NCBI RefSeq assembly: GCF_037392515.1
Contig: NC_090290.1
Span: 35,861,253 to 35,925,252 of the forward strand
Reading direction: 5' to 3'
From: Haliotis asinina
Lineage: Eukaryota > Mollusca > Gastropoda > Lepetellida > Haliotidae
DNA length: 64,000 bases
Within the stretch, counting starts at the first letter, position 1. Each line of letters opens with the position of its first letter. Under the pieces are notes generated by a model. The model was not told the origin of the DNA and did no database searches. It saw only the letters and a list, made by a program, of their open reading frames with translations. Positions 14,283 through 62,722 of the stretch are shown piece after piece. The position numbers and the translations under genes were made by a program.

Positions 14283-14776
14283 ATGCTGTTCTGTGAAAAC
14301 AACACACTGTGGACATCTGTGTGGGTCGACGAGGGAATCAACCAATGTTTCTTCGACACAGTATCCGCAGGAGTTCTGTTCATCATCATCATGGTATGTG
14401 GTCTGACTCAGTGTTTCTTCTACGGGCGGTACGCCACTCTCATCCAGCCCCGTCGTGTTCCCTGGTCGGGATGGTATGTGGTACAGATCATTATCACCGC
14501 CCTGATGGCTTGTGAGGCCCTACTACACATGATTATACAGGACACCTCCCTCGGACAGCAGTTGTATGGATATGAGATTCTGACGTCGATGTTGTTGCTG
14601 GTTGCATGGATTGTCTCCTTTAGACTGATGAGCTTGGAGAGGAACTACGCCCTGCCGTCAATACCTACAAGAGGCCATGGACTGGTGTTGCTTCTGTTCT
14701 GGTGTATGGCATTCGTCAGGGAGAATCTGGCCTTTGTTTCATGGTGGAGTCATAAATGGTGGTGGTACATGGATGG
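14283..14776 (+). CDS. ABCB6: ABCB6 coding exon 1 (TMD0)
   Basis: Encodes residues 1-164 plus two bases. Start chosen because the N-terminus aligns with human ABCB6, including two cysteines 18 residues apart (C4 and C22; C8 and C26 in human). A standard N-glycosylation sequon NNT lies at N6. Several hydrophobic helices follow, then the conserved SW..(K)WWW stretch. Donor GTGAGT at 14777; the exon end is copied into the intron minisatellite. Confidence 0.93.
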
Positions 14777-17700
14777 GTGAGTAGTGGTTGGACATGGATG
14801 GGTGAGTAATGGTTGGACATGGATCATTGGATGGGTGGGTAGTGGTTGGATATGGATGGGTGAGTAGTGGTGGGACACTGATGGGTGGTAGTGGTGGTAC
14901 ATGGATGGGTGGATAGCTTTGCGACATGGATAGGTAGGTAATGGTGCTACATTGGTGGGTGGGAATTGGATGGGTAGGTAATGGTAGTACATGGATGGGT
15001 GGGTAGTGTTGCGACATGGATGGGTAAGTAGAGATGGTACATGTATGGGTATGTAGAGGTGGTACATGTATGGGTATGTAGAGATGGTACATGTATGGGT
15101 ATGTAGAGATGGTACATGTATGGGTATGTAGAGGTGGTACATGTATGGGCATGTAGAGTTGGTACATGTAATGATGTATGGGTATGTAGATGTGGTACAT
15201 GTATGGGTAAGCAGAGGTGGTACATGTATGGGTATGTAGAGATGGTACATGTATGGGTATGTAGAGATGGTACATGTATGGGTAAGCAGAGGTGGTACAT
15301 GAATGGGTAAGCAGAGGTGGTACATGTATGGGTATGTAGAGGTGGTACATGTATGGGTATGTAGAGGTGGTACATGTATGGGTATGTAGAGATGGTACAT
15401 GTATGGGTATGTAGAGGTGGTACATGTATGGGCATGTAGAGTTGGTACATGTAATGATGTATGGGTATGTAGATGTGGTACATGTATGGGTAAGCAGAGG
15501 TGGTACATGTATGGGTATGTAGAGATGGTACATGTATGGGTATGTAGAGATGGTACATGTATGGGTATGTAGAGATGGTACATGTATGGGTATGTAGAGA
15601 TGGTACATGTATGGGTATGTAGAGGTGGTACATGTATGGGTATGTAGAGTTGGTACATGTAATGATGTATGGGTATGTAGATGTGGTACATGTATGGGTA
15701 AGCAGAGGTGGTACATGTATGGGTATGTAGAGATGGTACATGTATGGGTATGTAGAGATGGTACATGTATGGGTATGTAGAGACGGTACATGTATAGGTA
15801 TGTAGAGGTGGTACATGTATGGGTATGTAGAGATGGTAGATGTATTGGTATGTAGAGATGGTACATGTATGGGTATGTAGAGACGGTACATGTATAGGTA
15901 TGTAGAGGTGGTACATGTATGGGTATGTAGAGATGGTAGATGTATGGGTATGTAGAGATGGTACATGTATGGGCATGTAGAGTTGGTACATGTAATTATG
16001 TATGGGTATGTAGATGTGGTACATGTATGGGTAAGTAGAGGTGGTACATGTATGGGTATGTAGAGGTGGTACATGTATGGGTATGTAGAGGTGGTACATG
16101 TATGGGTATGTAGAGGTGGTACATGTATGGGTATACAGAGGTGGTACACAGATGGGTAGGTAAAGGTGGTACATGGATGGGTGGGTAGTATCGGGACATG
16201 TATGTGTGAATGGTACACTTGTTCACAGGTTCGATTCCCAAAATAGGTGCAGTGTGAAAACATTTTTACTGTTCCCACTGGAGCAAACCTCTCTCTATCT
16301 CTCTCTCTCTCTCTCTCACTCACAAACTCACGAACTCACTCACGATGATGACCTCTGTGTTTCAGCACTGAAAACTACCTGGAGTTTGGTTTCTGGGTGG
16401 TGCGGTACGTCTTCACCCTCACTTTGTTCATCATGGGACTGAAGGCGCCAGGACTGTCCCACATGAAGTACGACATCCTTGTCAATGACATGGTGAGACA
16501 GTGCTGAAATGTCAGCTTTTTATTCTTGAATCTCATTTGTTGGTTTTCAGGAGGAAAGTGACAAAAGCTGAAAAATGAAGGGTAGCCTTGTGCAGTGTGC
16601 AAAATAGGGATTTAATAACAGTGAGTCTGCCTGCTTTTGTCGCCTGTTCCGACAAGCATGGGAGACTGAGGATCAGTTCTAACCAGGATCTTCATGGGTA
16701 CAGATACCATGGAATATAGGTTTTATAAATCTCGGTTCAGCCTGATTTGTTGTTAAAGTTTGTCAACACTCAATTGTTTCAATATTTCCACACACATCAA
16801 ACTGATACTGCTAATTAACTGGAGTAACCAAACCCAAACCTGGTCGTTATGATCAGATGTTCTCTGAGACATTTGTAATATTTTTTACTGTTTTTTCCTG
16901 TTACTGAGATGAAGAATGGCTGATTTGCCCCATTGGTGTATTGTATGGAATCTATTTCTAGTGACCCCACCATTATATTGCATGAGGATTGCTACAAGCA
17001 GCATAAAACTCATTCACAAACTACAGTCATCCCTCGCAATAACATGGATCTTGGGGTCCACTGATGACCCCTGCTTTATTAGACAGCTGTGTTATAGTAC
17101 TTATCACATTATGTGGAACGAAGGCCAAGTAAAATCGTATTTTCCCAGGACATAACAAAACTGCTATTTCGTGTATTGTGCCTAGTCAAAACCATATCGT
17201 ATCGTTGAAGGTGAAAATATACATATATATGTAAGGGAAACTTGCAATCAAAAATCACTAGACATGATAACTTAATTGTTGTTCCTGTTATGCTACCTGT
17301 TATTCAACTAAACAGATGTTTTAGTGCAAGTCATGTAAAGACGATCCGATAATATTACCTAATAAAACTTATTTTCTGTTATCAGAATATTTTATATATT
17401 AAGCATTTATTGTAACAGATTATTATACATTGCTATTGGTTTTATATATAATGCATGTTTTCTGCAAGCATATTTAATATAACAATGAACACAGGCCATT
17501 ACCTGTCTGGATACATTTTATGTAGGAGACAGTTTGACAAGTCACTGCTGACTTCCTGTGCTACTTTGATTGTAGAAAACAAAAGGTTAGCCATTTAATT
17601 GTTAAAAATGACATCAATGAATCAGTGATGTGGAGTCCATGGATTATGAGACTAATCTGTTTGTGATTGCTAAGAACAATGTGAAATTGGTGCTATTGCG

Positions 17701-20700: not shown

Positions 20701-23700
20701 ACACATTGCAGGAAGACAACTTTCAACACACCCGAGATGTGTTGCAAGGGAGACAACTGATGTAGTTTATGTGCGGAGCGTGTCTGGTTTCTTTTTTATG
20801 TGTTTGTATTGTGCACTAGTTGGGGATACTTGCACCATGGTAATATGCACTATTATAATCATCATTTCTGTTCCAGATTGCAATCCAGACAGAATAAGTT
20901 TTCAGTGAATTGTACAGCTTTTCACTCATTGACGTCCTTGCTATAAGCCTATTGTTTTATTGATGTTTGAAAAATATGTCTAGCAGCCAAACTCCTAGCA
21001 CCAAGTGAATATTGAGAGCTTCTACAGATGATTAGTGTGGTTTGGATAGTCCCTTGATGGTCAGGTTTCTTGGTGTACTATTCAACAAAATAGGCAGATG
21101 ACTCTTACATCAAAACAGATTGTTTTGAATCCTTTCTACCTGGTTCATATCCCAGAATTTGATGACAATATTTGATTTAGTTCAAAGAGAAAAACTGCAA
21201 TTATGACTGATCCCATAAACTGTCCTGAAAAATGATTTTTTCGACTTTCAGTCAACAGCTTGACGCCCAGCAAAGAAACAAGTGGAGACAACTCTAACTT
21301 GACTGCTCCAACCCTGTCCTTCCGGTGGGACTACATCTTGGTGTTTGTGGGACTCAGTTTTCTGAAAGGGGGAGGAGCAGGTAAGGTGCTTGCAGGACAC
21401 AACTCAGGACAGTAGTAAGCAACAAGTGCCTAAAGTTCGATGGCCTGGTGGTTTGGTTGCTGCCTTATGTTGCTGAATTCCTGGGTTTGATTCCTGGTGT
21501 GTGTATGATATGAAATAATGTCTTTGTTTAGGGGATAGAAATGCTTCATTGAGTGAAAGAGGAGATATGGTTTGAGCATGTGTGTGCAAACTGCTTAGTA
21601 TTCATAATTATTTGTAAGGGTGTCAGTATAACATAATATTGGTATTCTGTTCACTGATACATCTCCCTTAGGCATTGTTATTAAATTGTAGGAACTTCAG
21701 GGCTACTTAACAACATGAGATCATTCTTGTGGATCAAGGTGCAGCAGTTTACCACCCGAAGAGTCCAGGTCAAACTCTTCAACCACCTGCATCAGTAAGT
21801 CCACCCTGCATCTGTACATCCACCCCTATCTGTAAATCCATCCCTATCTGTAGATACACCCCATCTGAAAGTCTGTCCCCTATCTGTAAGTCCACCCCAT
21901 CTGTAATTCCACTCGCATTTGTAAATCCATCCCATATTTCAGTCAACCACCATCTTCAAAGATCTTTACATCTATACCCATCTGTATATCCATCACCATC
22001 TGTAAGTCCATATCCATCTGAAGGTCCACCCCTATCTGGAAATCCACCCCGTCTGTAAGTCCACCTCCATCTGTAAGTCCACCCTTATTTTAAGATCCAC
22101 CCCCCTCTGTAAGGCATGGTATTCCATTGTGGTAGTGTGAGATGAGACTGTATCTTACAACATGACATCCTGTATCACAGACTGTCGCTTCGATGGCATC
22201 TACAGCGGAAGACCGGGGAGGTGCTTCGAGTGGTTGACAGAGGCACCAACAGCATCAACAACCTGCTCAGGTAGGCAAAAGCCTAAAACATCAGCTGTAA
22301 TCATAAATCAACCATTGTAATTAGGAGACAGCATCAGCCGGAGGTTTCAAATGAAATATTCCCGTGCTTCAAATACTCGGTAACATTGGCCGACACGTGA
22401 TGTTTATCGACATTGTAAACAAAAAGTAAACCAAACGGTTTTATTGTCTGAACTTGTTTACATCGAGTACAAGTACAGCAGTGAAGTGTCATCGGCTGGC
22501 CATTTCAGCTGGTTCCCATGGCAGCATCTAGAGCTGCACATTTGTGGCGTCATTCTAACTTTACGTCACAATATGATTTGTAGACGTCACCACTGTTGAC
22601 ACAACAAAAAAAATTGTGTGCGATGTTTCTACGCATCAATATGCAGCAAACAGTCTTGCAGTTTCCGGGAATCAAATACCCTCTGATCATGTTTTTGAAC
22701 CAATCTGATGGCAGAAGACAGTGACTTTTGGTTTACAATTGCTAATGATATACATTGAGATTCGAATTTGAATGTGTCTGCAACTTGAGAATGTACCTGT
22801 AGTTGAAGAAATGCACTTTAACATTTCATGTCATTTGTATAACAAGTTGAGAAACAAGTTTTTACCAAGTGTTTGTAAAAGTGACTTTTTTATGTACCCT
22901 TCTGTGCATGTATTAGCTATAGAACGACCGCAGTTATTCAAGTAGGATTGGTTTGTCTAAGGAACCATATAGGCCTTCAGCAACCCATGCTTGCCATAAA
23001 AGGCGACTATGCTTGTCGTAAGAGGCGACTAACGGGATCGGGTGGTCAGGCTCGCTGACTTGGTTGATACATGTCATCGGTTCCCAATTGCGCAGATCGA
23101 TGCTCATGTTGTTGGTCACTGGATTGTCTGGCCCAGACTCGATTATTTACAGACCGCTGCCACATCGCTGGAATATTGCTGAGTGCGGCGTAAAACTAAA
23201 CTCACTCACTCACTCACTCACTCACTTTAAGGAATCATAACTGATCTAATGAGCCATTCGCAGTTTCACTGTGCTAGAGTTGTTACATAGGCATGCATGG
23301 CTTAATCCATGAGACAAGCATATGATATACTGGCAGAAGAAAGTTGTATGAGATAATACTGTGTTAGAATCTTCAGCATCCTATATTCTGGAGTGCACAC
23401 AAATCAGACAGCTGAATACTAACAGAAAAGGGAAACAACTGACAATTTTATGAATGCTTCATTTACTTTTTGTTGGCGGGGAAACTTGACCATTAATGGA
23501 AACTGAACATGAAAATGGAAAAACTGAGTTGTGATATGAAACTGAATGTCTTCAACAACAGACCGCCTGATTCAGAACCCTCCTGACAGTCCACCATTCT
23601 GCCCATGCTCCTCAACAACAACTTGTCCTCAAATAGCCAACATCCACCTCTGTGCAAGATATCATGTCATCTTTCTTCTTGCTGCAAATAATTGTCCTCC

Positions 23701-32700: not shown

Positions 32701-35700
32701 CTATCACTTTATCATTGATAATACAAATTACATTACATGAAAGTGCAACTGGGATTTGGCTGTTGCAACTAGGTTGTTAATTTAGGTCGCACCTGGTGCA
32801 GGGTGTTACCATCTCTAAAACTGAGCCCTGTAAGACTGTGACATCTATGGTGTGCTTGCATTTAAATCATAACATTTGCAACTTCTCAATAAAGCTTACA
32901 TTCTGTTTGCTATTACAGGAAGCAGATACTGAAAAACATCAGTTTCACTGTACCACCAGGACAAACATATGCTTTGGTGAGTGCACTGCAGATACTAGCT
33001 TTCTTGAATCTTATATAGTATGGCTGAACCTCAGATCCTTCCCTTTGCGTATAAAATATTTTTACTATCATCTATTTTCTTGTAATATGAATTTGTTTTA
33101 AAAATATTTTGACAAAAGTTTTAAGCCCACGTGGTTGAAAGACTTATGCAATAATTACGTACTTGTTTAGTGTTTGTTGTTTTCATTTTGTTGTGTTCAT
33201 TTTCATATATAGGGCTATTGTGTAACATACTTTTCGTCTCTTTGTCCAAACAGAGAAGATTAAAAACACCCAACCTCTGGACTAAGTCACACGGCATCCA
33301 CAAACTCATTGACCCATGCTTGAATCCAACCATTGTGAACACATATGAAGCATACTACCCATGAAGATCTGGGTTACAGTATTGATCTTCCATAACAATG
33401 CTTGTCATAAGAGATGATTAACATGATTGGGTGTTTAGACTTGGTTGAAACATGATCGATGCTCATGCTGTTCATCACTAGGTTGTATAGTCCAGATCTG
33501 ATTCTTTACCGACTGCCTCCATATTGCTGAGTGCGGCGTGATACTAAACTCCTTCACACACTCACTCATTGAATCATACACCCAAGGATCCATTTACCCT
33601 TGCACCCAAACACCTATAAATTCACTCACTTGCTACTTCACCAAATCACCAAACACCCATCCACCTCCTTGCTCAGACACAGCTGACTCCTAGAAACCCT
33701 TTCATCCACCTGCACAACATCTCTTACCACCTACTGACCCACCAACCCACTCAGCCACCTGCACAACATCTCTTACCACCTACTGACCCACCAACCCACT
33801 CACCCACCTACACAACATCTCTTACCACCTACTGACCCACCAACCCACTCACCCACCTACACAACATCTCTTACCACCTACTGATCCACCAACCCACTCA
33901 CCCACCTACACAACATCTCTTACCACCTACTGATCCACAAGTCCACTCACCCACCTGCACAACATCCTCTCACCTACTGACCCACCAACCCACTCACCCA
34001 CCTACACAACATCCTCTCACCTACTGACCCACCAACCCACTCACCAACCTACACAACATCCTCTCACCTACTGACCCACCAACCCACTCACCCACCTACA
34101 CAACATCCTCTCACCTACTGACCCACCAACCCACTCACCCACCTACACAACATCCTCTCACCTACTGACCCACCAACCCACTCACCCACCTACACAACAT
34201 CCTCTCACCTACTGACCCACCAACCCACTCACCCACCTACACAACATCCTCTCACCTACTGACCCACCAACCCACTCACCCACCTACACAACATCCTCTC
34301 ACCTACTGACCCACCAACCCACTCACCCACCTACACAACATCCCCTCACCTACTGACCCACCAACCCACTCACCCACCTACACAACATCCTCTCACCTAC
34401 TGACCCACCAACCCACTCACCCACCTACACAACATCCTCTCACCTACTGACCCACCAACCCACTCACCCACCTACACAACATCCTCTCACCTACTGACCC
34501 ACCAACCCACTCACCCACCTACACAACATCCTCTCACCTACTGACCCACAAGTCCACTCACCCACCTTCACAACATCTCTTACCACCTACTGACCCACCA
34601 ACCCACTCACCCACCTACACAACATCCTCTCACCTACTGACCCACCAACCCACTCACCCACCTACACAACATCTCTTACCAACTACTGACCCACAAGTCC
34701 ACTCACCCACCTTCACAACATCTCTTACCACCTGACCCACAAGTCCACTCACCCACCTTCACAACATTGTCTTACTGCCTGATGACACACCAGCTCACTC
34801 ACCCACCCACACAACATCCTCTTACCACGTACTGACCCTCCAGCCCACCCACCTACACAACATCCTCTTACCACGTACTGACCCTCCAGCCCACTCATCC
34901 ACCTTCACAACATCTCTTACCACCTACTGACCCACAAGTCCACTTACCCACCTTCACAACATTGTCTTACTGCCTGATGACACACCAGCTCACTCACCCA
35001 CCTACACAACATCCTCTTACCACGTACTGACCCTCCAGCCCACCCACCTACACAACATCCTCTTACCACGTACTGACCCTCCAGCCCACTCATCCACCTT
35101 CACAACATCTCTTACCACCTACTGACCCACAAGTCCACTTACCCACCTTCACAACATTGTCTTACTGCCTGATGACACACCAGCTCACTCACCCACCTAC
35201 ACAACATCCTCTTACCACGTACTGACCCTCCAGCCCACCCACCTACACAACATCCTCTTACCTACTGACCCACTAGCCCACTCAGCCACCTTCACAACAT
35301 TGTCTTACTGCCTGATGACCCACCAGCCACCCACCTACACAACATCCTGTTACCACGTACTGACCTTCCAGCCCACTCAGCCACCTACACAACATCCTCT
35401 TACCATGTACTGACCCTCCAGCCCACCCACCTACACAACATCCTCTTACCACATACTGACCCTCCAGCCCACTCAGCCACCTACACAACATCTTCTTGCC
35501 ACCTACTGACCCCCCTGCCCACTCTGCCATCTGCCCTCTGGCTGATTGTTTCTCTCTGTATTCAGGTGGGCCACACTGGTAGTGGAAAGAGCACAGTGAT
35601 CCGGCTACTGTTCCGCTTCTATGATATCAACAAGGGGACTGTGTTAATAGATGGCCAGGATATATCACAGGTAGACTGACATGTGTTAATAGATGGCCAG

Positions 35701-38700
35701 GATATATCACAGGTAGACTGACATGTGTTAATAGATGGCCAGGATATATCACAGGTAGACTGACATGCATTTATAGATGACAAGGAATATCACAGGTAGC
35801 CTGACATGTTCATAGATGACAAGATATATCACAGGTAGACTGACATGTGTTAATAGATGGCCAGGATATATCACAGGTAGACTGACATGTGTTAATAGAT
35901 GGCCAGGATATATCACGGGTAGACTGACATGCATTTATAGATGACAAGATATATCACAGGTAGCCTGACATGTTCATAGATGACAAGATATATCACAGGT
36001 AGACTGACATGTGTTTATAGATGACAAGATATATCATAAGTAGACTGACATGTGTTTATAGATGGCCAAAATATGTACAAGTAGACTGATGTGTTGATTG
36101 ATGGCGAGGATATGTACAGGTAGACTAGCATTTGTTTATAGATGACCAGGATATGTCACAGTTAGACTGACATACATTTATAGATGACAAGATATATTAC
36201 AGGTAGACTGAAGTATTTAAAGATATTAGATGTCTTACACGTAGACTGACATGAGTGTAAATGTGCTAGATATATCACACGTAGACTGACGTGTTGATAG
36301 ATGGCAAGGATATATATATATCACAGGTAAACTGACATGTATTTATAGATGACAAGATATATCACAGGTAAACTGACATGTGTTTATAAATGGCGGGGAT
36401 ATATATCACAGGTAAACAGAAGTGTTAAAAGATATCAGATACGTTGCAGGTTGACTGATATGTCTGAAGATGTTACAGGTAGACTGACATGTGTTTTTGA
36501 TGTTAGATGTGTTACAAGTAGACTGACATGCATATGAAGATGTTAGATGTGTTACAGGTAGACTGACATGTGTCTGAAGATGTTACAGGTAGACTGACAT
36601 GTGTTTATGTTGTTAGATGTGTTACAGGTTGACTGACATGTGTCTGAAGATGTTAGGTATGTTACAGGTAGACTGACCTGTGTCTAAAGATGTTAGATGT
36701 GTTACAGATAACTGACATGTGTCTGAAGATGTTACAGGTAGACTGACCTGTGTCTAAAGATTTTAGACATGTTAAAGGTTCACTGACATGTGTCTGTCGA
36801 TGACCAGGCCTCCTCAGTGATACAGAATATCGTTTGCATCTTTCAGGTGACCCAGAGTTCTTTGAGAAAGCAGATAGGCGTGGTCCCCCAGGATACAGTA
36901 CTGTTTAACAATGACATCAAGTACGTATTTGCACATTGCTGCTCAATGTGGACCCAGACATAAATTGACCCCGTTATTAAAAAGGTTACATGATTATTTA
37001 ACAGTTTTTACTTTTGATTCAATGAAACCTGTGTTATTTGTATCTGGAACCCTGAAGACCCTGAACTTAAATTCTGTAACCCATGCTTGTTGTAAGAGGA
37101 AGCTAACGTGATTGGATGGTTAGTCTTGCTGACTTGGTTAACACGTCATTGTATCCTGATTGCGCAGGTCGGTGCTCATAATCTGATCACCGGATTTTCG
37201 GGTGCAGAAGTGATTATTTACAGACCACCTCCATGTAGCTGGAATGTTGCTGAGTGTGGCATTAAACAACAAACCAGCCAACCAACTTGTGTCTGGACAC
37301 ACACACAGTGTGAAAATCCCTCAGAATATATGCACAATAGAACCTGAGCTTGTCCAGACTATTGGAAACAGTCACATATGCATGAACAACAATGTAAGTG
37401 CAATGAACTTGGACACAGTCTTGTCTAACATTAATTTGGTAGGATTTTCTTTTCATTATTTACTTTATTTCCAAAGCATTTATACATATTTCTTGTTTCA
37501 GATATAACATCCGATATGGCAAGGTTGAAGCATCTGACGAAGATGTGTATGAAGCTGCTGCCTTTGCCGACATCCATCACAGAATTCTAGGCTTCCCTAA
37601 TGGTGAGGACGACATTGTGAATTGCAGGATTGTAGTGATGTAACTCACAGTTAATTTGACATGGGTCATCATATCCCAATTATGTAGAACAATGCTTGTA
37701 ATGTTGATCATTGGATTGTCTGGTCCATATGCGATAATTTCCTGACATAGCTTGAATATCGCTGAGTGTGGTATTAAACAACGAACTGCAGTCTTCTAAC
37801 CTGGGAAAATCGTAATAATTCTTTTATTTCATTTTGAACATGGCTGTTTCAGCAGCGGTTTCTATGTTTTAGACCTTTTTCTAAGATTATATTTGGTCTA
37901 ACATGTAGTTAAAACTTTCTGAAGCTATGAAGCAAAAGTCTCAGTGTAAGGTGTGTCAAATACATAAGATATGATGTTCACAAGATGTACTTTTGGCGTT
38001 AGAACTGGTTATGAAAGTTGACAGTTAAGGAGACTTCAGCTGAAAATGAAAAGATTCTATTGTGTGATGATTTCTGCACTAATGTGAAGGATTGTACGCT
38101 AATATTATCATGATTATTGATGATTGCAGCCTATGAGACGGTAGTTGGGGAGCGTGGTCTGAAGTTGAGTGGGGGAGAGAAACAGAGGGTTGCCATCGCC
38201 AGGACGATGCTGAAAGCTCCTGCCATTGTGCTTCTGGATGAGGTACAAGCCGGGTCTCCACCACAATACTCTCACCTATACCAGTAGATACAACTCTGAC
38301 TTCAGCTACAACACAATTACAGTCTAAGTAAAGTTAGTCTCATTTGATTGGACGATCATAGGTCACTGAAAGGTTACCTGACACTACCTCATACTAGGGT
38401 TTGTTAGACTCAGTAGTGGAGTGTAATGAAAAGTACTGAGACTAAGTTTACTTAGCCTTAACACAGTTAGATCCATGACATAAGCTCCAACATATTGATC
38501 CCCACAATGTTAGCTACAACACACTGATCCCTGTGTCAGCTACAACACACTAATCCCCATGACATTAGCTCCAACACACTGATCCCATGACATTAGCTAC
38601 ACCAGACTGGTCCAGCATGAGATTAGCTGCAACACACTGATCCCCTTGACATTACCTACAACACACTGACCTTCATGACAGCTACAGCACACTGATCCCA

Positions 38701-41070
38701 TGATGTTGGCTACGACACACTGATCCCCTTGACATTACCTACAACACACTGACCTTCATGACAGCTACAACACACTGATCCCCATGATGTTAGCTACAAC
38801 ACTGTGAATCCAACAATATTAGTTACAACACATTAGCTACAAGATAGTGAACTCAGCGGCAATAGCTGCAACATAGTGAATATTGCAACATCAGCTACAA
38901 GTCAGGTGCAACTCTAGTCCTGCTCATGATGTTACTTTCTGTGTTTGCAGGCTACTTCAGCTCTAGACACTAAGACAGAGCGGAACATCCAGGCATCTCT
39001 GGCCAGAGTGAGTGAGAACAAAACAACACTTGTGGTTGCCCATCGACTCTCCACAGTCATCAATGCGAACCAGATCCTTGTACTGGACGAGGGTGAAATT
39101 GTCGAGCGTGGAACGTGAGTTGAAAACTTTGATTCTCATAATAATATGGAGGTCCATGTTTCACAAAAACTTTAGTGCTACAACTACTGGATGTCTGTGT
39201 CAGAGAATAGATTAAGATCATAACAGCATAGTATGTTTTCGCTGTATGTCAGTTTAATAGGAGGAGGAAAGAGCTGTAGGTCTCGCATATTTACCAATTT
39301 GATGAAAACTACCAGCAAAGATATAGTGCTAGCAAGACTAGAAATATAATCAGGGAAAACCACTGAAAAAACAATTCAAACCCACTGTCTAAGGTTTGGG
39401 GTGTGCCCAAGAGATCCAGGTTTGAAAAATTGCTAATAGCTGTGCCTTAGATAATGGGTCCCTTAAAACATTGATCTAGATCCACAAAGTGTTCGCAAGA
39501 TTATGACCTGTGGTAACTTTATGTTGAAAGTAGGTCTAAACCGAACTAGGGGAGGAAGAAAAGCCTAGTGGACAAAGCATTGGCTTCGTCATGCTGAAGC
39601 CTGGGGTTTGATTCCCCATATGGGTACAATGTATGAAGCCCATTTCTGGTGTCCCCTGCCATAATTTTGCTGGAATATTGCCAACAGCAGCGTAAAATTA
39701 AACTCTGCACCCAACACACCCAGTGAAGGTTAGATTCAAATAGGCAGCAAGCAACCCCATACTGTACAGGGGAAGAATGTGTTGTTAATCACAGTCAGAC
39801 ATAGCATTATCGGATTGCGCTCATAGTATCAATCATATGGTTGTCTGGTCCAGGCTTCAGTATTTACAAGTAGCACATAGCTAAAATGTATTGCTCGGTG
39901 AGTAGTTAGAATGCAAAGTAGTTAGAATGTCAGACTTACACATCATCTGATAAACAACTAAGGCTTATCCACTTATACATGTAATTATATTACATGTAGC
40001 CTGCTCATGTAGTGGTAAAAATTTCATGTGGCCCGCTGAGATATTCAAAACTCCTCATCTTAAGTATGACACTTATCTCGCATTGGTTTCTGGAGTGAGT
40101 GCATGTTTATCCTAAAGCATGGGTAAAGGGAGGTAACTCTTGGCTTGCCTCATCTATAGGATTTAAAATGACAAAATGAAAGTTACAAATTCTGCCTGTG
40201 TATGAGTGAATGCAGGAAAGGCACATTTAGGTCATTATGTGATGCATCCTTTGGTTCACACAAGGCATCACACAATATGCCCTGTGTGATAGGTTAATAA
40301 CTAACAATGTGACACCATATACACCTTGAAAGTAATTAAGGACTCCCACTATTTAAGGGATGATGAGAAACAACACTTACTGTAACTCTCTTACTATTCC
40401 AAAGATAGTGGAACCTTAGCGATTGTGAATCATACAATCTACTGGCAAATGAAACACAAGGAAATGATTCCAATTCGTATTGTTTTGATTGCGTAACCAG
40501 CGTGATTTGTTCACTGTTGATTTTTGATGAAAATAGTCACTAAACAAGTATGGTCGTAGCATTGTCAGTGGCTGACTATTACAAGAAATTATGCACAAGG
40601 AATGTCACATGTTAACGTCTGATGTGTCTGGCATCAGTATCGGGTGTGTCCCCCACGTGCTTGGATGGCAGCTAGAATCCTCCTCCTCATGCTACTATTA
40701 AACCTTCTGATAAGATCAAAGTGGCAATTGCCACCATTCTTCATGCAAAGCAGCTTCCAGCTGTTCAAGATTCTGGAGAGGGGGTTCTCTCAATCTCACA
40801 CGGTGTCCAAGAAAGTCCCATTCATGTTTAACAATTGTTGACAGTTGCTCTGCAATCATGAAATATATCAGAAGGTGCTTAATTCACTTCCAGGTGTATA
40901 TTTTATGTGAAACATGTTGCAGGCATGATGAACTTCTCGAGCATGGAGGTTACTACTATGATATGTGGCAGCAACAACTCACCAAGACCGAGGAAGGTGA
41001 AGAGAACGGCGATGAGAATGGTGCCTGCGCAAGCAATGGTGGTGACGGAAATGGTGACATCAAAAGCTGA
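14283..41070 (+). CDS. ABCB6: ABCB6-like half ABC transporter, 19 coding exons, complete
   Basis: Exons: 14283-14776, 16366-16492, 18474-18663, 21252-21380, 21692-21794, 22181-22270, 24136-24257, 25749-25858, 27497-27562, 28128-28342, 29169-29232, 31576-31661, 32919-32976, 35566-35670, 36847-36920, 37502-37602, 38130-38242, 38951-39114, 40923-41070. All introns are GT-AG and every split codon joins, giving 2559 nt or 852 residues plus stop; human ABCB6 has 842. Seen: a hydrophobic TMD0 (about residues 1-205), a six-helix core (about 235-550) with the family motif NFETVKYY, and an NBD with Walker [10 protein letters not shown] (K626), Q-loop Q668, signature LSGGE (724-728), Walker B VLLDE (745-749) and H-loop H780. 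Known for the family: a homodimeric half transporter linked to porphyrin, heme and metal handling in endolysosomal, plasma or mitochondrial outer membranes. Inferred: same role here. A very small exon between exons 2 and 3 cannot be excluded, because that linker is shorter than in human. ABCB7 and ABCB10 are less likely because of the TMD0. Confidence 0.95.
14777..16200 (+). repeat. 25-bp minisatellite starting at the ABCB6 exon 1 splice donor
   Basis: About 55-57 tandem units of 25 bp fill most of intron 1. The first units (GTGAGTAGTGGTTGG then ACATGGATGG) repeat the last ten bases of exon 1 plus the donor. Later units have drifted to a GTATGTAGAG form, which still resembles a donor. A variant with ATGATG spacing recurs at about 15170, 15460, 15660 and 15995, indicating higher-order duplication. 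Because 25 is not a multiple of 3 and no phase has a stop, all three minus-strand frames stay open for 375-474 codons with a 25-residue period. I read these as by-products, not genes. Confidence 0.95.
16294..16322 (+). repeat. CT-rich microsatellite
   Basis: A CT dinucleotide run about 40 bases before the exon 2 acceptor of ABCB6. It may act as part of an extended pyrimidine tract. Confidence 0.7.
16366..16492 (+). CDS. ABCB6: ABCB6 coding exon 2
   Basis: Completes the split codon of exon 1 and encodes to residue 207. It carries the last TMD0 helix ([17 protein letters not shown]) and the conserved KAPGL turn. Acceptor TTTCAG at 16365, donor GTGAGA at 16493, phase 0. Confidence 0.93.
18219..18384 (+). 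repeat. tRNA-like SINE (family B), + orientation
   Basis: Box A-like TAGCTTGTGGTTAAAGC and box B-like GGGTTTGATTCCCC are followed by the family body and a CACTCACTC tail. It lies in ABCB6 intron 2, 90 bases before exon 3. Confidence 0.85.
18474..18663 (+). CDS. ABCB6: ABCB6 coding exon 3
   Basis: Encodes residues 208-270: a glycine/serine-rich linker, the conserved STW, the CWPKG motif and the first helix of the ABC core. Acceptor TGTCCAG at 18473, donor GTGAGT at 18664, phase 1. The open frame runs on into the intron but the homology stops here. Confidence 0.93.
18842..19623. mobile_element. MITE-like element with TTTAAAGGTCACATGC ends, copy 2
   Basis: The left end TTTAAAGGTCACATGC is answered at the right by GCATGTGGCCTTTAAA, its imperfect inverted copy. 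The body is alignable by eye to 6140-7390 over several hundred bases. No transposase is visible. It sits in ABCB6 intron 3. Confidence 0.8.
19640..19955 (-). repeat. Dispersed repeat, inverted relative to 8640-8960
   Basis: About 315 bases match the reverse complement of 8640-8960 by eye, for example the TTGATGGTCAGTTAATGAAT block. It begins directly after the MITE at 18842-19623. The family was not recognised. Confidence 0.65.
21252..21380 (+). CDS. ABCB6: ABCB6 coding exon 4
   Basis: Encodes residues 271-313. A polar luminal loop ([17 protein letters not shown], containing the sequon NLT) is longer than in the human protein. A helix ending in the conserved FLKGGGAG follows. Acceptor TTTCAG at 21251, donor GTAAGG at 21381, phase 1. 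Confidence 0.92.
21692..21794 (+). CDS. ABCB6: ABCB6 coding exon 5
   Basis: Encodes residues 314-347, with the strongly conserved [15 protein letters not shown] stretch that precedes the FNHLH coupling region. Acceptor TTGTAG at 21691, donor GTAAGT at 21795, phase 2. Confidence 0.94.
21787..22115 (+). repeat. 17-19-bp minisatellite starting at the ABCB6 exon 5 splice donor
   Basis: About 17 irregular units of the form CATCTGTAAGTCCACCCC fill most of intron 5. The first unit is the exon end (GCATCA) plus the true donor GTAAGTCCACC. Several later units keep a perfect GTAAGT, for instance near 21886, 21999, 22053 and 22071. Units vary in length and have many substitutions, so the array is older or less homogenised than the other donor-linked arrays in the window. 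Confidence 0.85.
22181..22270 (+). CDS. ABCB6: ABCB6 coding exon 6
   Basis: Encodes residues 348-377, [20 protein letters not shown] followed by GTNSINNLL, among the most conserved parts of the ABCB6/HMT1 core. Acceptor CACAG at 22180, donor GTAGGC at 22271, phase 2. Confidence 0.95.
22965..23226 (+). repeat. Abalone-type SINE-like repeat (family A), nearly full copy
   Basis: Runs from the CCTTCAGCAACCCATGCTTG block through the GATCGATGCTCATG core to the shared 3' module and a CTCA tail. It lies in ABCB6 intron 6. Its first half reads as an open minus frame but has no protein signature. Confidence 0.85.
24136..24257 (+). CDS. ABCB6: ABCB6 coding exon 7
   Basis: Encodes residues 378-418: two helices of the core, with [12 protein letters not shown] and [17 protein letters not shown] matching human ABCB6 closely. 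Acceptor TTGTAG at 24135, donor GTGAGT at 24258, phase 1. Confidence 0.94.
25235..25709. mobile_element. MITE with 20+ bp inverted ends and TA target duplication
   Basis: The left end CTCTTTAAAAAAAGTAGGGG and the right end CCCCTACTTTTTTAAGAG are inverted copies, each flanked by TA. The 475-bp body has no transposase. Ends and target site fit a Tc1/mariner-type non-autonomous element. It lies 39 bases before exon 8 of ABCB6. Confidence 0.82.
25749..25858 (+). CDS. ABCB6: ABCB6 coding exon 8
   Basis: Encodes residues 419-455, including [10 protein letters not shown] and [10 protein letters not shown], which are hallmarks of the ABCB6/ABCB7/HMT1 group. Acceptor TTCTCAG at 25748, donor GTAAGT at 25859, phase 0. 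Confidence 0.95.
27497..27562 (+). CDS. ABCB6: ABCB6 coding exon 9
   Basis: A 22-codon exon (residues 456-477) starting [18 protein letters not shown]. It follows LLNFET of exon 8 without a gap. Acceptor TTTCAG at 27496, donor GTAAGT at 27563. Confidence 0.93.
27770..28040 (+). repeat. Repeat cluster: family D fragment plus 3' half of a family A SINE
   Basis: 27770-27885 matches 28485-28640 by eye (both contain the CCTAGTTTGACCC block). From 27885 the core and 3' module of a family A repeat follow, ending in a degenerate AAAACTGCACACAC tail. Confidence 0.6.
28128..28342 (+). CDS. ABCB6: ABCB6 coding exon 10
   Basis: Encodes residues 478-548: the last core helices, with GSLLCAYAV, the conserved [15 protein letters not shown] and PLNWLGTYY. 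Acceptor TTTCTAG at 28127, donor GTACTG at 28343, phase 2. Confidence 0.95.
28375..28640 (+). repeat. Two copies of a dispersed tRNA-like repeat (family D)
   Basis: 28375-28480 and 28485-28640 are related to each other and to 27770-27885. Each carries a box B-like GTTTGAAA or GTTCGAAA followed by CTAGTTTG. No other family recognised. Confidence 0.5.
28659..28828 (+). repeat. tRNA-like SINE (family B), + orientation
   Basis: Begins GGGGCGGTGGGGTAGCGAAG, has box B-like GGTTCGATTCCCC and ends in a damaged GCGGCGTAAACTCAAAACTC module. Confidence 0.85.
29169..29232 (+). CDS. ABCB6: ABCB6 coding exon 11
   Basis: Encodes residues 549-570, [19 protein letters not shown], the conserved linker from the last core helix to the NBD. 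Acceptor TTTCAG at 29168, donor GTTTGT at 29233, phase 0. Confidence 0.93.
29671..29825 (-). repeat. tRNA-like SINE (family B), - orientation
   Basis: Reverse copy: it starts with the complement of the 3' module (TAGTTTTACGCTGCC) and ends with TTAACCACTGGACTACTCCA, the complement of box A. Confidence 0.85.
29895..30495. repeat. Dispersed repeat related to 10190-11290
   Basis: 29910-30070 matches 11100-11285 in the same orientation (shared GATTAATTGAAAT and GTTGTCAGGGCC blocks). 30140-30495 matches 10200-10545 in reverse. The same two modules are therefore present at both places in a rearranged order. Confidence 0.6.
30892..31303. mobile_element. MITE with GGGGTGC inverted ends
   Basis: The left end GGGGTGCATTGCAA and the right end TTGCAACGCACCCC are inverted copies, with CGCTT matching further in. 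The body has an open frame (31012-31326, starting [13 protein letters not shown]) without a recognised domain. The ends resemble PIF/Harbinger-type elements; no clear target duplication seen. Confidence 0.6.
31576..31661 (+). CDS. ABCB6: ABCB6 coding exon 12
   Basis: Encodes residues 571-598 at the NBD entry: [17 protein letters not shown], with the A-loop aromatic Y just before DPA. Acceptor TCCAG at 31575, donor GTATGT at 31662, phase 2. Confidence 0.93.
31850..32000 (-). repeat. Partial foldback/tRNA-like repeat (family C)
   Basis: Contains the arm GGATTACACTTTAATTTAAAG and the complement of a box B-like core (GGGATTTGAACTCACACT). Related to 49990-50145 and 61700-62010. Confidence 0.5.
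32746..32832. repeat. Terminal fragment related to the element at 12036-12304
   Basis: Shares GCACCTGGTGCA and the end CTCTAAAACTGAGCCCTG with the longer element. The left end is missing. Confidence 0.55.
32919..32976 (+). CDS. ABCB6: ABCB6 coding exon 13
   Basis: Encodes residues 599-618, [19 protein letters not shown], the NBD strand leading to Walker A. Acceptor TTACAG at 32918, donor GTGAGT at 32977, phase 0. Confidence 0.93.
33362..33575 (+). repeat. SINE-like repeat (family A), degenerate
   Basis: Starts GAAGATCTGGGTTACAG, keeps the GATCGATGCTCATG core and the GAGTGCGGCGTGATACTAAAC module, and ends in ACACACTCACTC. Confidence 0.75.
33600..35520 (+). repeat. 47-bp minisatellite in ABCB6 intron 13
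   Basis: About 40 units of CTACTGACCCACCAACCCAC / TCACCCACCTACACAACATC / CTCTCAC. Spacing is 47 bp where units are regular (33950-34540) and more variable toward 35520. The + strand is almost free of G while the minus strand has several GGG tracts per unit. The array ends about 45 bases before the exon 14 acceptor, so its C/T-rich end adjoins the pyrimidine tract. Unlike the donor-linked arrays, it shows no exon sequence. Confidence 0.95.
35566..35670 (+). CDS. ABCB6: ABCB6 coding exon 14 (Walker A)
   Basis: Encodes residues 619-653: Walker [10 protein letters not shown], then [11 protein letters not shown] and IDGQDISQ. Acceptor TATTCAG at 35565, donor GTAGAC at 35671, phase 0. The last 31 bases recur unchanged in the following intron. 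Confidence 0.96.
35640..36800 (+). repeat. 42-bp minisatellite containing the exon 14 end and its splice donor
   Basis: The unit is 31 bases of exon 14 plus 11 bases of intron. Copies at 35682-35723 and 35724-35765 start as perfect repeats of 35640-35681, with donor copies GTAGAC at 35713 and 35755 spaced by exactly 42. Further near-perfect copies occur to about 35935; later units shorten to roughly 35-40 bp and diverge but keep CAGGTAGACTGACATG. Reading through the true donor in frame gives GTA GAC TGA, a stop after two codons. Confidence 0.95.
36847..36920 (+). CDS. ABCB6: ABCB6 coding exon 15 (Q-loop)
   Basis: Encodes residues 654-677, [20 protein letters not shown] then NND, with Q-loop glutamine Q668. 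Acceptor TTTCAG at 36846, donor GTACGT at 36921, phase 2. Confidence 0.95.
37075..37290 (+). repeat. SINE-like repeat (family A), degenerate
   Basis: From CCCATGCTTGTTGTAAGAGG through GACTTGGTTAACACG to GCTGAGTGTGGCATTAAACAA. The tail lacks CTCA. Confidence 0.7.
37502..37602 (+). CDS. ABCB6: ABCB6 coding exon 16
   Basis: Encodes residues 678-711: [20 protein letters not shown] and [12 protein letters not shown] of the helical subdomain. Acceptor TTTCAG at 37501, donor GTGAGG at 37603, phase 1. Confidence 0.95.
37655..37790 (+). repeat. SINE-like repeat (family A), 3' fragment
   Basis: Only the core and 3' module remain (GATCATTGGATTGTCTGGTC, then GCTGAGTGTGGTATTAAACAA). Confidence 0.6.
38130..38242 (+). 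CDS. ABCB6: ABCB6 coding exon 17 (signature and Walker B)
   Basis: Encodes residues 712-749: [20 protein letters not shown] and [10 protein letters not shown], the ABC signature and Walker B with catalytic E749. Acceptor TTGCAG at 38129, donor GTACAA at 38243, phase 0. Confidence 0.97.
38470..38910 (+). repeat. About 30-bp minisatellite in ABCB6 intron 17
   Basis: Units of the type ATGACATTAGCTACAACACA followed by CTGATCCCC, with irregular spacing. It ends about 40 bases before exon 18. It does not contain the exon 17 end. Confidence 0.85.
38951..39114 (+). CDS. ABCB6: ABCB6 coding exon 18 (D-loop and H-loop)
   Basis: Encodes residues 750-803: ATSALDT (D-loop), [21 protein letters not shown] with H780, and [13 protein letters not shown]. 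Acceptor TTTGCAG at 38950, donor GTGAGT at 39115, phase 2. Confidence 0.97.
39549..39715 (+). repeat. tRNA-like SINE (family B), + orientation
   Basis: Box A-like AGCCTAGTGGACAAAGC, box B-like GGTTTGATTCCCC, then the family body to GCAGCGTAAAATTAAACTC. In ABCB6 intron 18. Confidence 0.82.
40630..40845 (-). pseudogene. Tc1/mariner-like transposase C-terminal fragment, antisense in ABCB6 intron 18
   Basis: The minus strand reads [20 protein letters not shown], then an EEWWQLP block, and after one in-frame stop [19 protein letters not shown]. These match the C-terminus of Tc1-like transposases (an EHVWD.LGRRVR type motif to the RGGHT.Y end). The catalytic N-terminal part is absent. The fragment ends about 75 bases before exon 19, so it is a dead insertion. 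Confidence 0.8.
40923..41070 (+). CDS. ABCB6: ABCB6 coding exon 19 (C-terminus)
   Basis: Encodes residues 804-852: [18 protein letters not shown], the family C-terminus, then an acidic, Gly/Asn-rich tail ([12 protein letters not shown] and [12 protein letters not shown]) and TGA. The low-complexity tail is specific to this protein relative to human ABCB6. Acceptor TTGCAG at 40922. Confidence 0.95.
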
Positions 41071-43584: not shown

Positions 43585-44745
43585 GGGTCACAAGCTTTTG
43601 CTGTGATTATTCCGTCTGTAAAGAAGATATATGAAAATGGCCTAAGTTCTTCATCATCAAATACATTGTGTGTTTTGAATGCAATTTATGATTTGATCAT
43701 TATTACATATAGACACATGAAAATGGCCGAAGTTCTTCATCGTCAAATACATTTTGTGTTTTGAATGCAATTTATGATTTGATTGTTATTACATGTAGAT
43801 GCATGAAAATGGCCCAAGTTCTTCATCGTCATATTCATTGTGTGTTTTGAATGCAATTTATGATTTGATCGTTATTACATGTAGACACATGAAAATGGCC
43901 TAAGTTCTTCATCGCCAAATGCATTGTGTGTTTTGAATGCAATTTATGATTTGATCTTTATTACATGTAGATACATGAAAATGGCCGAAGTTCTTCATCG
44001 TCAAATACATTTTGTGTTTTGAATGCAATTTATGATTTGATTGTTATTACATGTAGATGCATGAAAATGGCCCAAGTTCTTCATCGCCATATTCATTGTG
44101 TGTTTTGAATGCAATTTATGATTTGATCGTTATTACATGTAGACACATGAAAATGGCCCAAGTTCTTCATCGTCAAATGCATTGTGTGTTTTGAATGCAA
44201 TTTATGATTTGATCTTTATTACATGTAGATACATGAAAATGGCCGAAGTTCTTCATCGTCAAATACATTTTGTGTTTTGAATGCAATTTATGATTTGATT
44301 GTTATTACATGTAGATGCATGAAAATGGCCCAAGTTCTTCATCGCCATATTCATTGTGTGTTTTGAATGCAATTTATGATTTGATCGTTATTACATGTAG
44401 ACACATGAAAATGGCCCAAGTTCTTCATCGTCAAATACATTTTGTGTTTTGAATGCAATTTATGATTTGATTGTTATTACATGTAGATGCATGAAAATGG
44501 CCCAAGTTCTTCATCATCCAAATGCATTGTGTGTTTTGAATGCAATTTATGATTTGATCATTATTACATGTAGATACATGAAAATGGCCCAAGTGCTTCA
44601 TCGCCAAATGCATTGTGTGTTTTGAATGCAATTTATGATTTGATCATTATTACATGTAGGTACATGAAAATGGCCCAAGTGCTTCATCGCCAAATGCATT
44701 GTGTGTTTTGAATGCATTTTATGTTTTGATCATTACTACATGTCT
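43585..44745 (+). repeat. 86-bp satellite array with three-unit higher-order pattern
   Basis: About 13 units measured from the CATGAAAATGGCC block (43715, 43802, 43888, 43974, 44060 and onward). Three variants alternate: CATTTTGTG with GCCGAAG, CATATTCATTG with GCCCAAG, and AAATGCATTG. The A-B-C order is seen at 43715-43973 and again twice after 43974, a 258-bp higher-order unit, before breaking up after 44400. Confidence 0.92.
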
Positions 44746-45795: not shown

Positions 45796-46243
45796 CTGAT
45801 TGAGTGAGATGGGTTTTACACAGCATTAGCCGTATTCTAGCCATATCATGGCAGAGGACACAGGAAATGGACTTCACACATTGTGCCCATGTGGAGAATC
45901 GAACTCGGGCCTTTGGTTTGACAAGTGAACACTGTAACCGCTGGAGACCCGTGAAGGTCCCAGGGTAGAATAGGGCCTTCAGCAACCCATGCTTGCCATA
46001 AAAGGCGACTATGCTTGTCGTAAGAGGCAACTAATGGGAAGGGGTGGTCAGGCTTGCTGACTTGGTTGATACATGTCATCGGTTCCCAATTGCGCAGATC
46101 GATGCTCATGTTGTTGATCACTGGATTGTCTGGTCCAGATTTGATTATTTACAGACTGCCGCCATTCAGCTGGAATATTGCTGAGTGCAGTGTAAAACTA
46201 AACTCACTCACTCACTCACTTTAACCACTGGACTACCCAATAT
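45796..46243 (-). repeat. tRNA-like SINE (family B), - orientation, interrupted by a family A repeat
   Basis: The reverse SINE runs 45796-45951 and resumes at about 46219-46243. The box A complement appears on both sides of the insert (CTGTAACCGCTGGAG and CTTTAACCACTGGAC), which looks like a target duplication of about 15 bp. Confidence 0.75.
45952..46218 (+). repeat. SINE-like repeat (family A), nearly full, nested
   Basis: GTGAAGGTCCCAGGGTAGAA to the CTCACTCACTCACT tail. Inserted in the opposite orientation to its host SINE. Confidence 0.88.
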
Positions 46244-55115: not shown

Positions 55116-55117
55116 TT

Positions 55118-55325: not shown

Positions 55326-55486
55326 ATGAGTTAGTGAGATGAGGAGGAAGAAAATCTCATGATTATTTTGCTATTACCTAAAGCTAGTTGCAAGGAAATA
55401 AAGTGTCATGCTGTGGGAAGTACAGCTGCCAGAAAACAACTCAACTCATTTATTATGAAAATACATAATGCACAGAATATAACATA

Positions 55487-55612: not shown

Positions 55613-55842
55613 TATACAGTTTTCAATTCTGTAACTGTGTTTTTAGCAAACTTGTTTATAACAAATTGACATTTGACAAACCTCCTTATTCTCGACCATT
55701 TGATGTATGTATTATGTCATTTTGAGTATAACTAAATGTGGATCCAAGCTATCCCCTTGCATTTTTTATAACTGTAGTTCTCTCACTGAATGCAGCAATA
55801 GCGATAGTACTCAGCTGACAACTATTTCTGTTTTCATTTCAG

Positions 55843-61800: not shown

Positions 61801-62389
61801 GGAACCGTGCCAGTCAATACTAATTACCATTTGTCTGACTCTTTTCTAACATTTTTGTAGAAGTGGTGATGGCTGTGTGGGTTTAGGCACCTGACTTAGG
61901 TGCCTTGGGTGTGGGTTCGAACCCCAGATGGGACTCAACTCATAAAAGTACTGGAATTTGTACTTTACTAAGAAAATGTAATCCCAAATATAGCATCTAT
62001 TACATATAACATATATGGGAAATCATCAATGACTTACAAAGCAGTGATCACAGAGGATTTACAGTCATTTTACACACACTTCACTGACTTTGTCCACCAT
62101 GTGAAAAGCATGGTTTTGCTGTAGAAATTAACAATCCACATTTCCAAGAGGTGGAATAATTTTTTTTGTGTGTTTTCTGTAGATGGAGCATGAAGACTGG
62201 TGGCTAGATTTCAAGCATTACAATGAGCGACACAAGTCCATCTTGTCCGACTGGCTGCGTGACCGTCGGGAGCTGTTGGTGAAGGCCAGGTTGGTGTTTG
62301 CTGAGGCTGCTGCTGCTCAGGACCTGGAGGACCTGAAGGAGGACAGCAGACAGAAACAGCTAGAGCTGTGTGAAGCCCTGTACACTCAG
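55843..62389 (+). CDS. CCDC148: CCDC148-like coiled-coil protein, first six coding exons, 3' end outside the window
   Basis: Coding segments 55888-55942, 59807-60194, 60699-60877, 61070-61265, 61401-61548 and 62183-62389, with 5' UTR from 55843. All junctions are GT-AG and in phase: 1173 nt, 391 codons, no stop. By recollection of human CCDC148 (about 590 residues), matching blocks are VDYNKLKAMAMEKR near the N-terminus, LECPDESLKVSVLEEF, YDQYPTELQNRR, HLPHMNRAELMEHE and QKQLELCEALYTQ, in the same order. Lys/Glu/Gln-rich stretches predict long helices. The remaining roughly 200 residues should lie downstream of 64000. Function is not established; related coiled-coil proteins occur in cilia, but that is inference. 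Confidence 0.88.
55846..55888 (+). promoter_or_regulatory. Two uORFs in the CCDC148 leader, the second overlapping the start codon (TGATG)
   Basis: 55846-55863 encodes five residues (MDEVC). 55850-55888 encodes twelve residues (MKCVDIWPTRPA), and its TGA shares one A with the main ATG at 55888. Such overlap favours reinitiation, if the mRNA includes this exon from 55843. Confidence 0.5.
55888..55942 (+). CDS. CCDC148: CCDC148 coding exon 1
   Basis: Encodes MSGRDYRSFVTNHRAEEM plus one base. Acceptor TTTCAG at 55842, donor GTAAGT at 55943. The ATG has G at -3. Two short upstream ATGs lie in the same exon. Confidence 0.8.
57040..58670 (+). pseudogene. Decayed non-LTR retrotransposon (CR1/L2-type) reverse transcriptase
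   Basis: Reverse transcriptase blocks in order: LSNYRPVSNL, LLDLSAA (motif A aspartate), GVPQGSVLGPILF, FYADDSQL (catalytic YADD), KNLGVFID, then the C-terminal LDYCNSLLVG, LQRIQNRAARII and LWNSLPF ending at TAA 58548. The copy is broken by a 1-bp frameshift near 57290, a small deletion near 57470 that removes the residues after motif A, shifts near 57830 and 58035, and a stop at 58366. The 5' part and endonuclease are missing. The 3' end (CTTTATAAATACCC then ATT repeats to 58670) is typical of CR1/L2-like elements. It lies in CCDC148 intron 1. The clade is inferred. Confidence 0.85.
59003..59395 (+). pseudogene. Penelope-like element fragment with GIY-YIG endonuclease
   Basis: Reads CQSHNVVYLTTCKSCQKQYV then GETERCFRIRLTEH and HFNSEHHGKNDLQFQII. 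This fits the VYL..C..C...YVGET...R..EH pattern of the GIY-YIG domain in Penelope-like elements. A 17-bp tandem expansion interrupts it, and after a frame change WIFELHTFYLQGLNDRTIG matches the usual end. No reverse transcriptase is attached. It lies in CCDC148 intron 1, 410 bases before exon 2. Confidence 0.75.
59234..59306 (+). repeat. 17-bp tandem repeat inside the Penelope-like fragment
   Basis: Just over four copies of GACAACCCAGACTCTGA, nearly identical, so the expansion is recent relative to the host fragment. Confidence 0.9.
59807..60194 (+). CDS. CCDC148: CCDC148 coding exon 2
   Basis: Largest exon, residues 19-147 plus two bases: VDYNKLKAMAMEKRFSGHKT, then KTKENHLLKQQRLVWQKEF and an EIDLH block. 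It is predominantly helical and charged. Acceptor TGTGTAG at 59806, donor GTAACC at 60195, phase 2. Confidence 0.9.
60699..60877 (+). CDS. CCDC148: CCDC148 coding exon 3
   Basis: Encodes DDLTYWLKENKEELRLGAPE through KQQQKDILDKLKQEQRCLEQ, a likely coiled coil. Acceptor TTTTCCAG at 60698, donor GTGGGT at 60878, phase 1. Confidence 0.88.
61070..61265 (+). CDS. CCDC148: CCDC148 coding exon 4
   Basis: Encodes DELLELCPPQMEKRPKFVDG, LECPDESLKVSVLEEF and LDQKYYARLANLDSRHRKAL. Acceptor TTTCAG at 61069, donor GTAAGT at 61266, phase 2. Confidence 0.9.
61401..61548 (+). CDS. CCDC148: CCDC148 coding exon 5
   Basis: Encodes SDHTGGWDDEDHFTFVAVYD, QYPTELQNRRKLLVDRLKRH and LPHMNRAEL. This is the most conserved block relative to human CCDC148. 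Acceptor TTTACAG at 61400, donor GTGAGT at 61549, phase 0. Confidence 0.92.
61700..62010 (+). repeat. Foldback repeat with tRNA-like centre (family C)
   Basis: The arm GGGATTACACTTTCTTAGTA (61721 on) is answered by TACTAAGAAAATGTAATCCC (61967 on). In the centre, 61863-61935 has a box B-like GGTTCGAACCCC. It occupies half of CCDC148 intron 5. Confidence 0.7.
62183..62389 (+). CDS. CCDC148: CCDC148 coding exon 6
   Basis: Encodes MEHEDWWLDFKHYNERHKSI through QKQLELCEALYTQ (69 codons). Acceptor CTGTAG at 62182, donor GTGAGA at 62390, phase 0. The last 18 bases are copied in the downstream minisatellite. Confidence 0.92.
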
Positions 62390-62722
62390 GTGAGATAGTG
62401 ATGCCCTGTATACTCGTGTGAGATAGTGATGCCCTGTACACTGAGGTGAGATAGGGATGCCCTGTACACCCAGGGGCGATAGTGATGACCTGTACTCTGA
62501 AATGAGATAGTGAAGCCCTGTACACTCAGGTGAGATAGTGAAGCCCTGTACACTCAGGTGAGATAGTGAAGCCCTGTACACTGAGGTAAGATAGTGAAGC
62601 CCTGTACACACAGGTGAGATAGTGATGACCTGTACAGTCAAGTGAGATAGTGATGACCTGCAGACTGTGGTGAGATAGTGAAGCCCTGTAAACTCAGGTG
62701 AGATAGTGAAGCCAAGTACACT
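62372..62722 (+). repeat. 28-bp minisatellite containing the CCDC148 exon 6 end and its splice donor
   Basis: About 12 units of GAAGCCCTGTACACTCAG (exon part) plus GTGAGATAGT (intron part). Units at 62512-62539 and 62540-62567 are identical to the exon-intron junction, while the nearest units (62400-62510) have more changes. Read through in frame, the true donor gives GTG AGA TAG, an immediate stop. Confidence 0.95.

Follow-up and report, generated by a model that had tools for sequence, protein, structure and literature searches.

Four introns in the window analyzed here, a 64,000-nt stretch of a 1.14-Gb genome (contig C11:35861253-35925252), begin with minisatellites that start within the preceding exon (9–31 bases) and repeat the exon end together with the 5′ splice site. 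We favor the explanation, with a probability of about 0.6, that these arrays are minisatellites founded by random local tandem duplications that straddled an exon border, pinned at the exon and growing on the intron side, with no need of a donor-specific initiator. The four arrays of the preliminary description are confirmed, with TRF and direct reading of the sequence in agreement. These arrays, the exons to which they are attached, and two contrasting arrays are as follows (all on the + strand):

14289..14776, +, ABCB6 exon 1 (phmmer match to human ABCB6 for part, extended to the donor; Pfam MTABC_N)
14759..16204, +, 25-bp array over the ABCB6 intron 1 donor (14777), 18 exon bases included (TRF, unit alignment)
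21724..21794, +, ABCB6 exon 5, conserved part, ending ..NHLHQ (homology, 5/6 join alignment)
21786..22113, +, 17–19-bp array over the ABCB6 intron 5 donor (21795), 9 exon bases included (TRF, unit alignment)
33695..35524, +, contrast: 47-bp array within ABCB6 intron 13, away from splice sites (TRF, neighbouring exons)
35566..35670, +, ABCB6 exon 14 (Pfam and homology, 14/15 join alignment)
35640..36796, +, 42-bp array over the ABCB6 intron 14 donor (35671), 31 exon bases included (TRF, sequence, unit alignment, gradient)
36847..36918, +, ABCB6 exon 15, part read (sequence, homology, 14/15 join alignment)
38473..38832, +, contrast: 29-bp array within ABCB6 intron 17 (number inferred from the numbering of the preliminary description), away from splice sites (TRF, exon positions)
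62183..62389, +, CCDC148-like exon, ending ..LELCEALYTQ (open frame and splice signals)
62370..62724, +, 28-bp array over the CCDC148-like donor (62390; intron 6 in the earlier numbering), 20 exon bases included (TRF, unit alignment)

Two of the window arrays exceed 1 kb by TRF, and the 42-bp array occupies most of ABCB6 intron 14 (35671-36846). With a minimum of 2.8 copies, the window contains 14 array clusters in all, six of which, including the four donor-spanning ones, are certainly intronic in ABCB6 and the CCDC148-like gene; a seventh, weak array (60596-60661, 2.8 copies) sits between two predicted exons. The original statement that four of six intronic minisatellites span donors is a fair count, becoming four of seven if the weak array is included. 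No acceptor-spanning array was seen within the window. From the density of arrays, 0.12 donor-spanning arrays are expected for the window donors, estimated at about 24, and the four observed correspond to a Poisson P of 7e-6, before correcting for the choice of the window. Elsewhere in the window there is an 86-bp array (43625-44743; 13 copies, 92%) to the 3′ side of the last ABCB6 exon found, and a reverse transcriptase (RVT_1) fragment (57425-57835) upstream of the CCDC148-like exons. A 22-bp tandem word (ATGCTTGCCATAAAAGG..) is common to positions 22987-23031 and 45989-46033, with a related form in two other loci (L061 and L087), and is probably a piece of a dispersed element.

The host of three of the window arrays is, from its homology, certainly ABCB6, with exon 1 matching both human ABCB6 (phmmer) and Pfam MTABC_N. 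The exon joins across two of the four array introns, 5/6 and 14/15, are gapless at the join relative to human ABCB6; the former reads HLHQ|LSLRWHL with no insertion, and at the latter human ABCB6 chains match across the whole join, the displayed alignments being those of related ABC transporters. Because these joins carry no insertion, the conserved protein would need the first-copy donor, and the alignments thus support first-copy donors at introns 5 and 14. The second gene carries the putative name CCDC148 from the preliminary description; one of its exons has no PDB match and the exon preceding the array has no Pfam match, but an ab initio exon chain terminates at donor 62389/62390. At all four window arrays an in-frame stop codon lies no more than three codons past the first donor, such that use of a later copy would introduce a stop. 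We considered an early stop as a special feature of these introns and dropped it, as a stop within 33 nt is also present in 59 of 109 ordinary dynein introns.

Alignment of the copies to the exon-derived unit gave 58, 18, 30, and 13 rows for ABCB6 introns 1, 5, and 14 and the CCDC148-like intron, and GT is present at the donor position in 50, 14, 27, and 10 of these, respectively. Retention in the donor stretch (−2 to +6) compared with the remaining unit is 0.75 vs 0.86 in intron 1, 0.74 vs 0.81 in intron 5, 0.93 vs 0.86 in intron 14, and 0.91 vs 0.91 in the CCDC148-like intron. The decoy donors are therefore neither strongly purged nor specially guarded, though in introns 1 and 5 the donor stretch falls slightly short, which could reflect weak purging. 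Many decoys are as strong as the first donor, which speaks for donor choice by position: among decoy GTs scoring above 2, those at least equal to the first donor number 40 of 123 in intron 1, 5 of 5 in intron 5, 16 of 36 in intron 14, and 4 of 9 in the CCDC148-like intron. In ABCB6 intron 14, copies farther from the exon are less identical to the exon unit (rho = −0.80); the remaining three window arrays have weak negative trends that are non-significant, so that the gradient is significant in one array of the four.

Arrays of this type are present in unrelated genes, as had been reported for the window, and again at other places in the genome. Six further donor-spanning arrays were identified, of which four, at apparent coding exons, came from a genome-wide pattern search for three tandem copies of CAGGTAAGT, and two (L051 and L121) from sampling of exons by gene family:

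L001, 35-bp unit, donor-spanning (open frame and splice signals)
L005/L010, 43-bp unit, donor-spanning (open frame and splice signals)
L012, 26-bp unit, donor-spanning (open frame and splice signals)
L125, 42-bp unit, donor-spanning, TSC2 exon (tuberin match)
L051, ~20-bp unit, donor-spanning (ABC transporter exon)
L121:218-640, 70-bp unit, six copies with 99% match, donor-spanning (DNAH2, dynein heavy chain 2, exon)

The L121 array is apparently very young, to judge from its copies. Its unit consists of 55 exon and 15 intron bases, and the copied stretch is bounded by a common CAT at both duplication ends; this may be the trace that slippage or microhomology-mediated duplication or end joining leaves, a three-base match being weak evidence. 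The L051 donor is a manual reading, the predictor having preferred a site that is weaker and lies 13 bases upstream of the array. Searches of PDB with short peptides from the L001, L005, and L012 exons gave no match. The L001 exon received a weak score from the ab initio predictor, which did not recover the L005 exon as manually read and placed no exon in L125, where the identity of the exon comes from the tuberin match. Of at least 17 donor-word arrays, the surrounding sequence was read for the nine on C2-C5: four are exon-anchored (those listed above), L011 is possibly so, no exon was seen in the sequence around L013 and L122, and in L123 and L124 the array runs off the start of the sequence examined.

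The 3′ splice sites have corresponding arrays, three of which were encountered in the exon sample:

L045:162-1028, 34-bp unit, ~22 copies, acceptor-spanning, ending at a dynein exon (unit TTACTAAGTGTTGTGTTGTGGCAG|ATCC)
L042, 19-bp unit, ~16 copies, ending at the acceptor with 1–2 exon bases only (unit TGTTTCAATGTTTAG|GTCA)
L049, 22/41-bp units, short array, acceptor-spanning

The L045 unit contains a T-rich stretch, the acceptor AG, the exon start, and a word that we take to resemble a branch site, and as such looks like an entire 3′ splice-site module. A dynein intron in L049 also contains two near-identical 101-bp tandem copies with AG|GT (6115-6318), with no clear exon. Several border repeats of 1.9–2.5 copies, mostly at acceptors, were left out of the array count, as were two found with lenient TRF settings only (L050: 25 bp, 3.1 copies, 8 exon bases, acceptor; L116: 14 bp, 2.8 copies, acceptor) and two that abut a border without exon bases: a weak one at a donor (L091), and a 19-bp array of ~10 copies in a minus-strand gene that stops exactly at the acceptor (L103:451-652). 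Inclusion of the lenient-setting repeats would raise the acceptor count and not the donor count.

The frequency of border-spanning arrays was estimated from 207 exons picked by gene family, comprising 109 dynein exons in 100 kb of dynein genes, 32 other dynein exons, 42 ABC exons, and 24 myosin exons, all predicted from paralog homology, codon bias, and splice-site weights. The 100 kb of dynein genes, which were picked for compactness, contain 120 exons with a coding score of at least 10, of which the 109 scoring at least 15 were retained; the remainder of the sample drew on 42 of 78 ABC_membrane, 24 of 125 Myosin_head, and a further 32 of 88 AAA_6 matches listed. Many of the sampled ABC exons are tandem paralogs, and so are not independent. 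Donor-spanning arrays are present at two of the 207 exons (L051 and L121; a rate with a 95% interval of 0.1–3.4%, and thus low power), compared to about 0.67 expected from array density and unit length (P = 0.15 for two or more), and acceptor-spanning arrays at three (L045, L042, and L049), also with about 0.67 expected (P = 0.03 for three or more), this count falling to two without L042. The L121 array was first met in L036, a locus chosen before any repeat was known and in which the exon missed the flank limit by a few bases; this exon and one neighbour were counted via L121, which was chosen for its array, and without both of them the donor count is one in 205. Pooling both borders gives 4–5 arrays compared to 1.34 expected (P = 0.05–0.01), and borders of either kind may carry modestly more arrays than random founding provides, which would follow if pinned arrays persist for longer.

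The window, with four arrays at about 24 donors, differs from the sampled exons (Fisher P = 0.0012 vs 2/207), but it is an outlier that was selected for its arrays. The preliminary description had set as its test a strong excess of arrays at donors and not at acceptors, and the sample does not bear this out; with two donors and three acceptors among the 207 exons, and low power, neither a donor excess nor a donor–acceptor asymmetry is shown.

A second comparison comes from a genome-wide census of words, in which three copies of the strong donor word CAGGTAAGT at 5–35 spacing were sought, with the reversed word as control. Counted as places there are 131 for the donor word and 32 for the reversed word, an apparent four-fold excess that we rejected because the places cluster: by our own clustering of the listed places there are at least 17 arrays in 12,478 donor-word sites compared to 10 in 10,565 sites for the reversed word (P = 0.24, or 0.12 if 20 donor-word arrays are assumed). 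The acceptor word TTTTACAGG has 58 places forming 11 arrays in 16,121 sites (P = 0.085 vs the donor word), and the reversed acceptor word 44 places in 23,115 sites. A roughly two-fold preference for donors is thus possible and a strong one is not indicated; a two- to three-fold preference is also compatible with the exon sample, given its low power. Neither the sample nor the non-significant census upholds the special link to 5′ splice sites that had been proposed for the arrays. Also seen in the genome are a long array of the acceptor word at 34-bp steps (C26:378922-380732), and clusters of many ABC_membrane exon matches at C6:18.05-18.34 Mb and C1:19.6-19.7 Mb that are probably tandem ABC transporter families.

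A simple explanation is that a local tandem duplication founds each array, and that by chance the copied stretch spans an exon border. The exon copy would be under selection for protein and splicing, so the exon-side end of the array would stay fixed, whereas the intron side would be free for further copies to accumulate and decay, with splicing keeping to the exon-proximal copy. The same founding and pinning would apply at 3′ splice sites. The suggestion that the exon holds one end of the array in place was made from the window alone and fits the arrays, including the gradient in intron 14. The duplication mechanism, the pinning, and the donor used in the RNA are all inferred, and random founding with exon-side selection would account for the presence of arrays at both borders, for their position, and for the survival of the decoys.

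The main competitor is that the region of the 5′ splice site is itself the trigger of tandem duplication, through an R-loop or a U1-paired nascent RNA, such that donors gain arrays more often. The window, with four arrays at donors and none at acceptors, is what this would predict, as are the greater frequency per site of donor-word arrays over those of reversed or acceptor words (ratio 1.4–2.0) and the four of nine donor-word arrays on C2-C5 that apparently begin at a coding exon. The ratios are, however, non-significant, the sampled exons have arrays at both borders, and the L121 unit is more exon than intron, and we consider nucleation at donors unlikely. A role for the arrays themselves, such as control of expression through numerous decoy 5′ splice sites that would retain U1 or delay splicing, could be argued from the retention of the donor GT at 0.89–0.97 across many copies, but the other unit columns are retained at 0.81–0.91, and copying by itself would produce a similar result; moreover in introns 1 and 5 the donor stretch as a whole is retained less than the remaining unit, and the unit sequences vary between genes. 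Maintenance for function is therefore very unlikely.

An origin of the introns themselves, with tandem copies bearing AG|GT supplying the splice sites and the arrays marking recently gained introns (a Rogers-type model), has precedents described in fission yeast and in globin genes (PMC3087553, PMC4974935), and AG|GT is present in 21 of 30 rows in intron 14 and 7 of 13 in the CCDC148-like intron. Against this, the intron 1 and intron 5 units read TGG|GT and TCA|GT, with AGGT in only 3 of 58 and 0 of 18 rows, and the sequence places the acceptor of intron 14 outside its array; at none of ABCB6 introns 1, 5, and 14 does the unit supply both the donor GT and the acceptor AG of the present intron. 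We thus regard recent intron gain as a rather improbable source of the arrays. The data are from one assembly, which raises the question of artefact, but within every window array the copies are set apart by substitutions and indels at scattered positions, arrays of this class turn up at many loci, and length alleles are described for amphioxus (PMC3087553), so that an assembly error is hardly credible.

A broader proposal, which we put forward tentatively and would not expect to hold in full, is that border-spanning arrays are a common and continuing form of variation, present at about 1% of splice sites per side and perhaps numbering thousands genome-wide, with some genes far above this (ABCB6, with three in ~18 introns). 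Arrays pinned at the exon would persist and act as nurseries in which donors and whole 3′ splice-site modules are duplicated, with the spliceosome having to choose by position from many equal sites. If they are common, these arrays are natural settings in which to test how a splice site is chosen from many identical donors or acceptors of equal strength, and how gene structure is reshaped by tandem duplication.

For minisatellites over 5′ splice sites the preliminary description pointed to amphioxus, in which such repeats are known as mirages, and the original paper is reportedly that of Canestro in 2002. The precedent is real: the available texts describe amphioxus mirages over exon–intron borders in Adh3, the globins BflGb6 and BflGb9, and TnC, with a similar arrangement in PGBD5, having units of 10–72 bp in Adh3 and leaving regular splicing undisturbed (PMC3087553, PMC3902484), and one of them already ties mirages to intron gain (PMC3087553). 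Variable length and somatic instability are also counted among the traits of mirages. As far as these accounts go, the arrays described here have in common with mirages a unit of exon and intron bases with repeated splice signals, and an occurrence at both 5′ and 3′ borders (acceptor arrays L045, L042, and L049); they differ in being from another phylum, if the genome is that of an abalone, and in being described from genome sequence. Human segmental-duplication genes are described as having internal tandem repeats with ~30-bp units, some at exon–intron boundaries, that alter gene structure (PMC2812944); as described, those genes are primate paralogs of recent origin that have novel introns, whereas the genes here are conserved and the ABCB6 5/6 and 14/15 protein joins are unchanged. 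When introns are gained through tandem duplication of AGGT segments, splice signals are, in the account available, likewise copied (PMC4974935), whereas the arrays here copy an existing border. Among invertebrates, intron 3 of an abalone TSSK1-like gene has a 27-bp minisatellite that differs in copy number among individuals, also an intronic repeat in an abalone gene, with splice-site overlap not stated in the available text (PMC6905558), and the accessible part of a report on intronic minisatellites in an earthworm gene describes no splice-site-spanning array (PMC12783039). No report of molluscan splice-site-spanning arrays was found in the titles and abstracts of the open-licence papers listed by our searches. 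The arrays belong to the known class of mirages, to which we add a group of loci and an initial, approximate figure for how often such arrays occur, and they suggest that mirages are not peculiar to lancelets.
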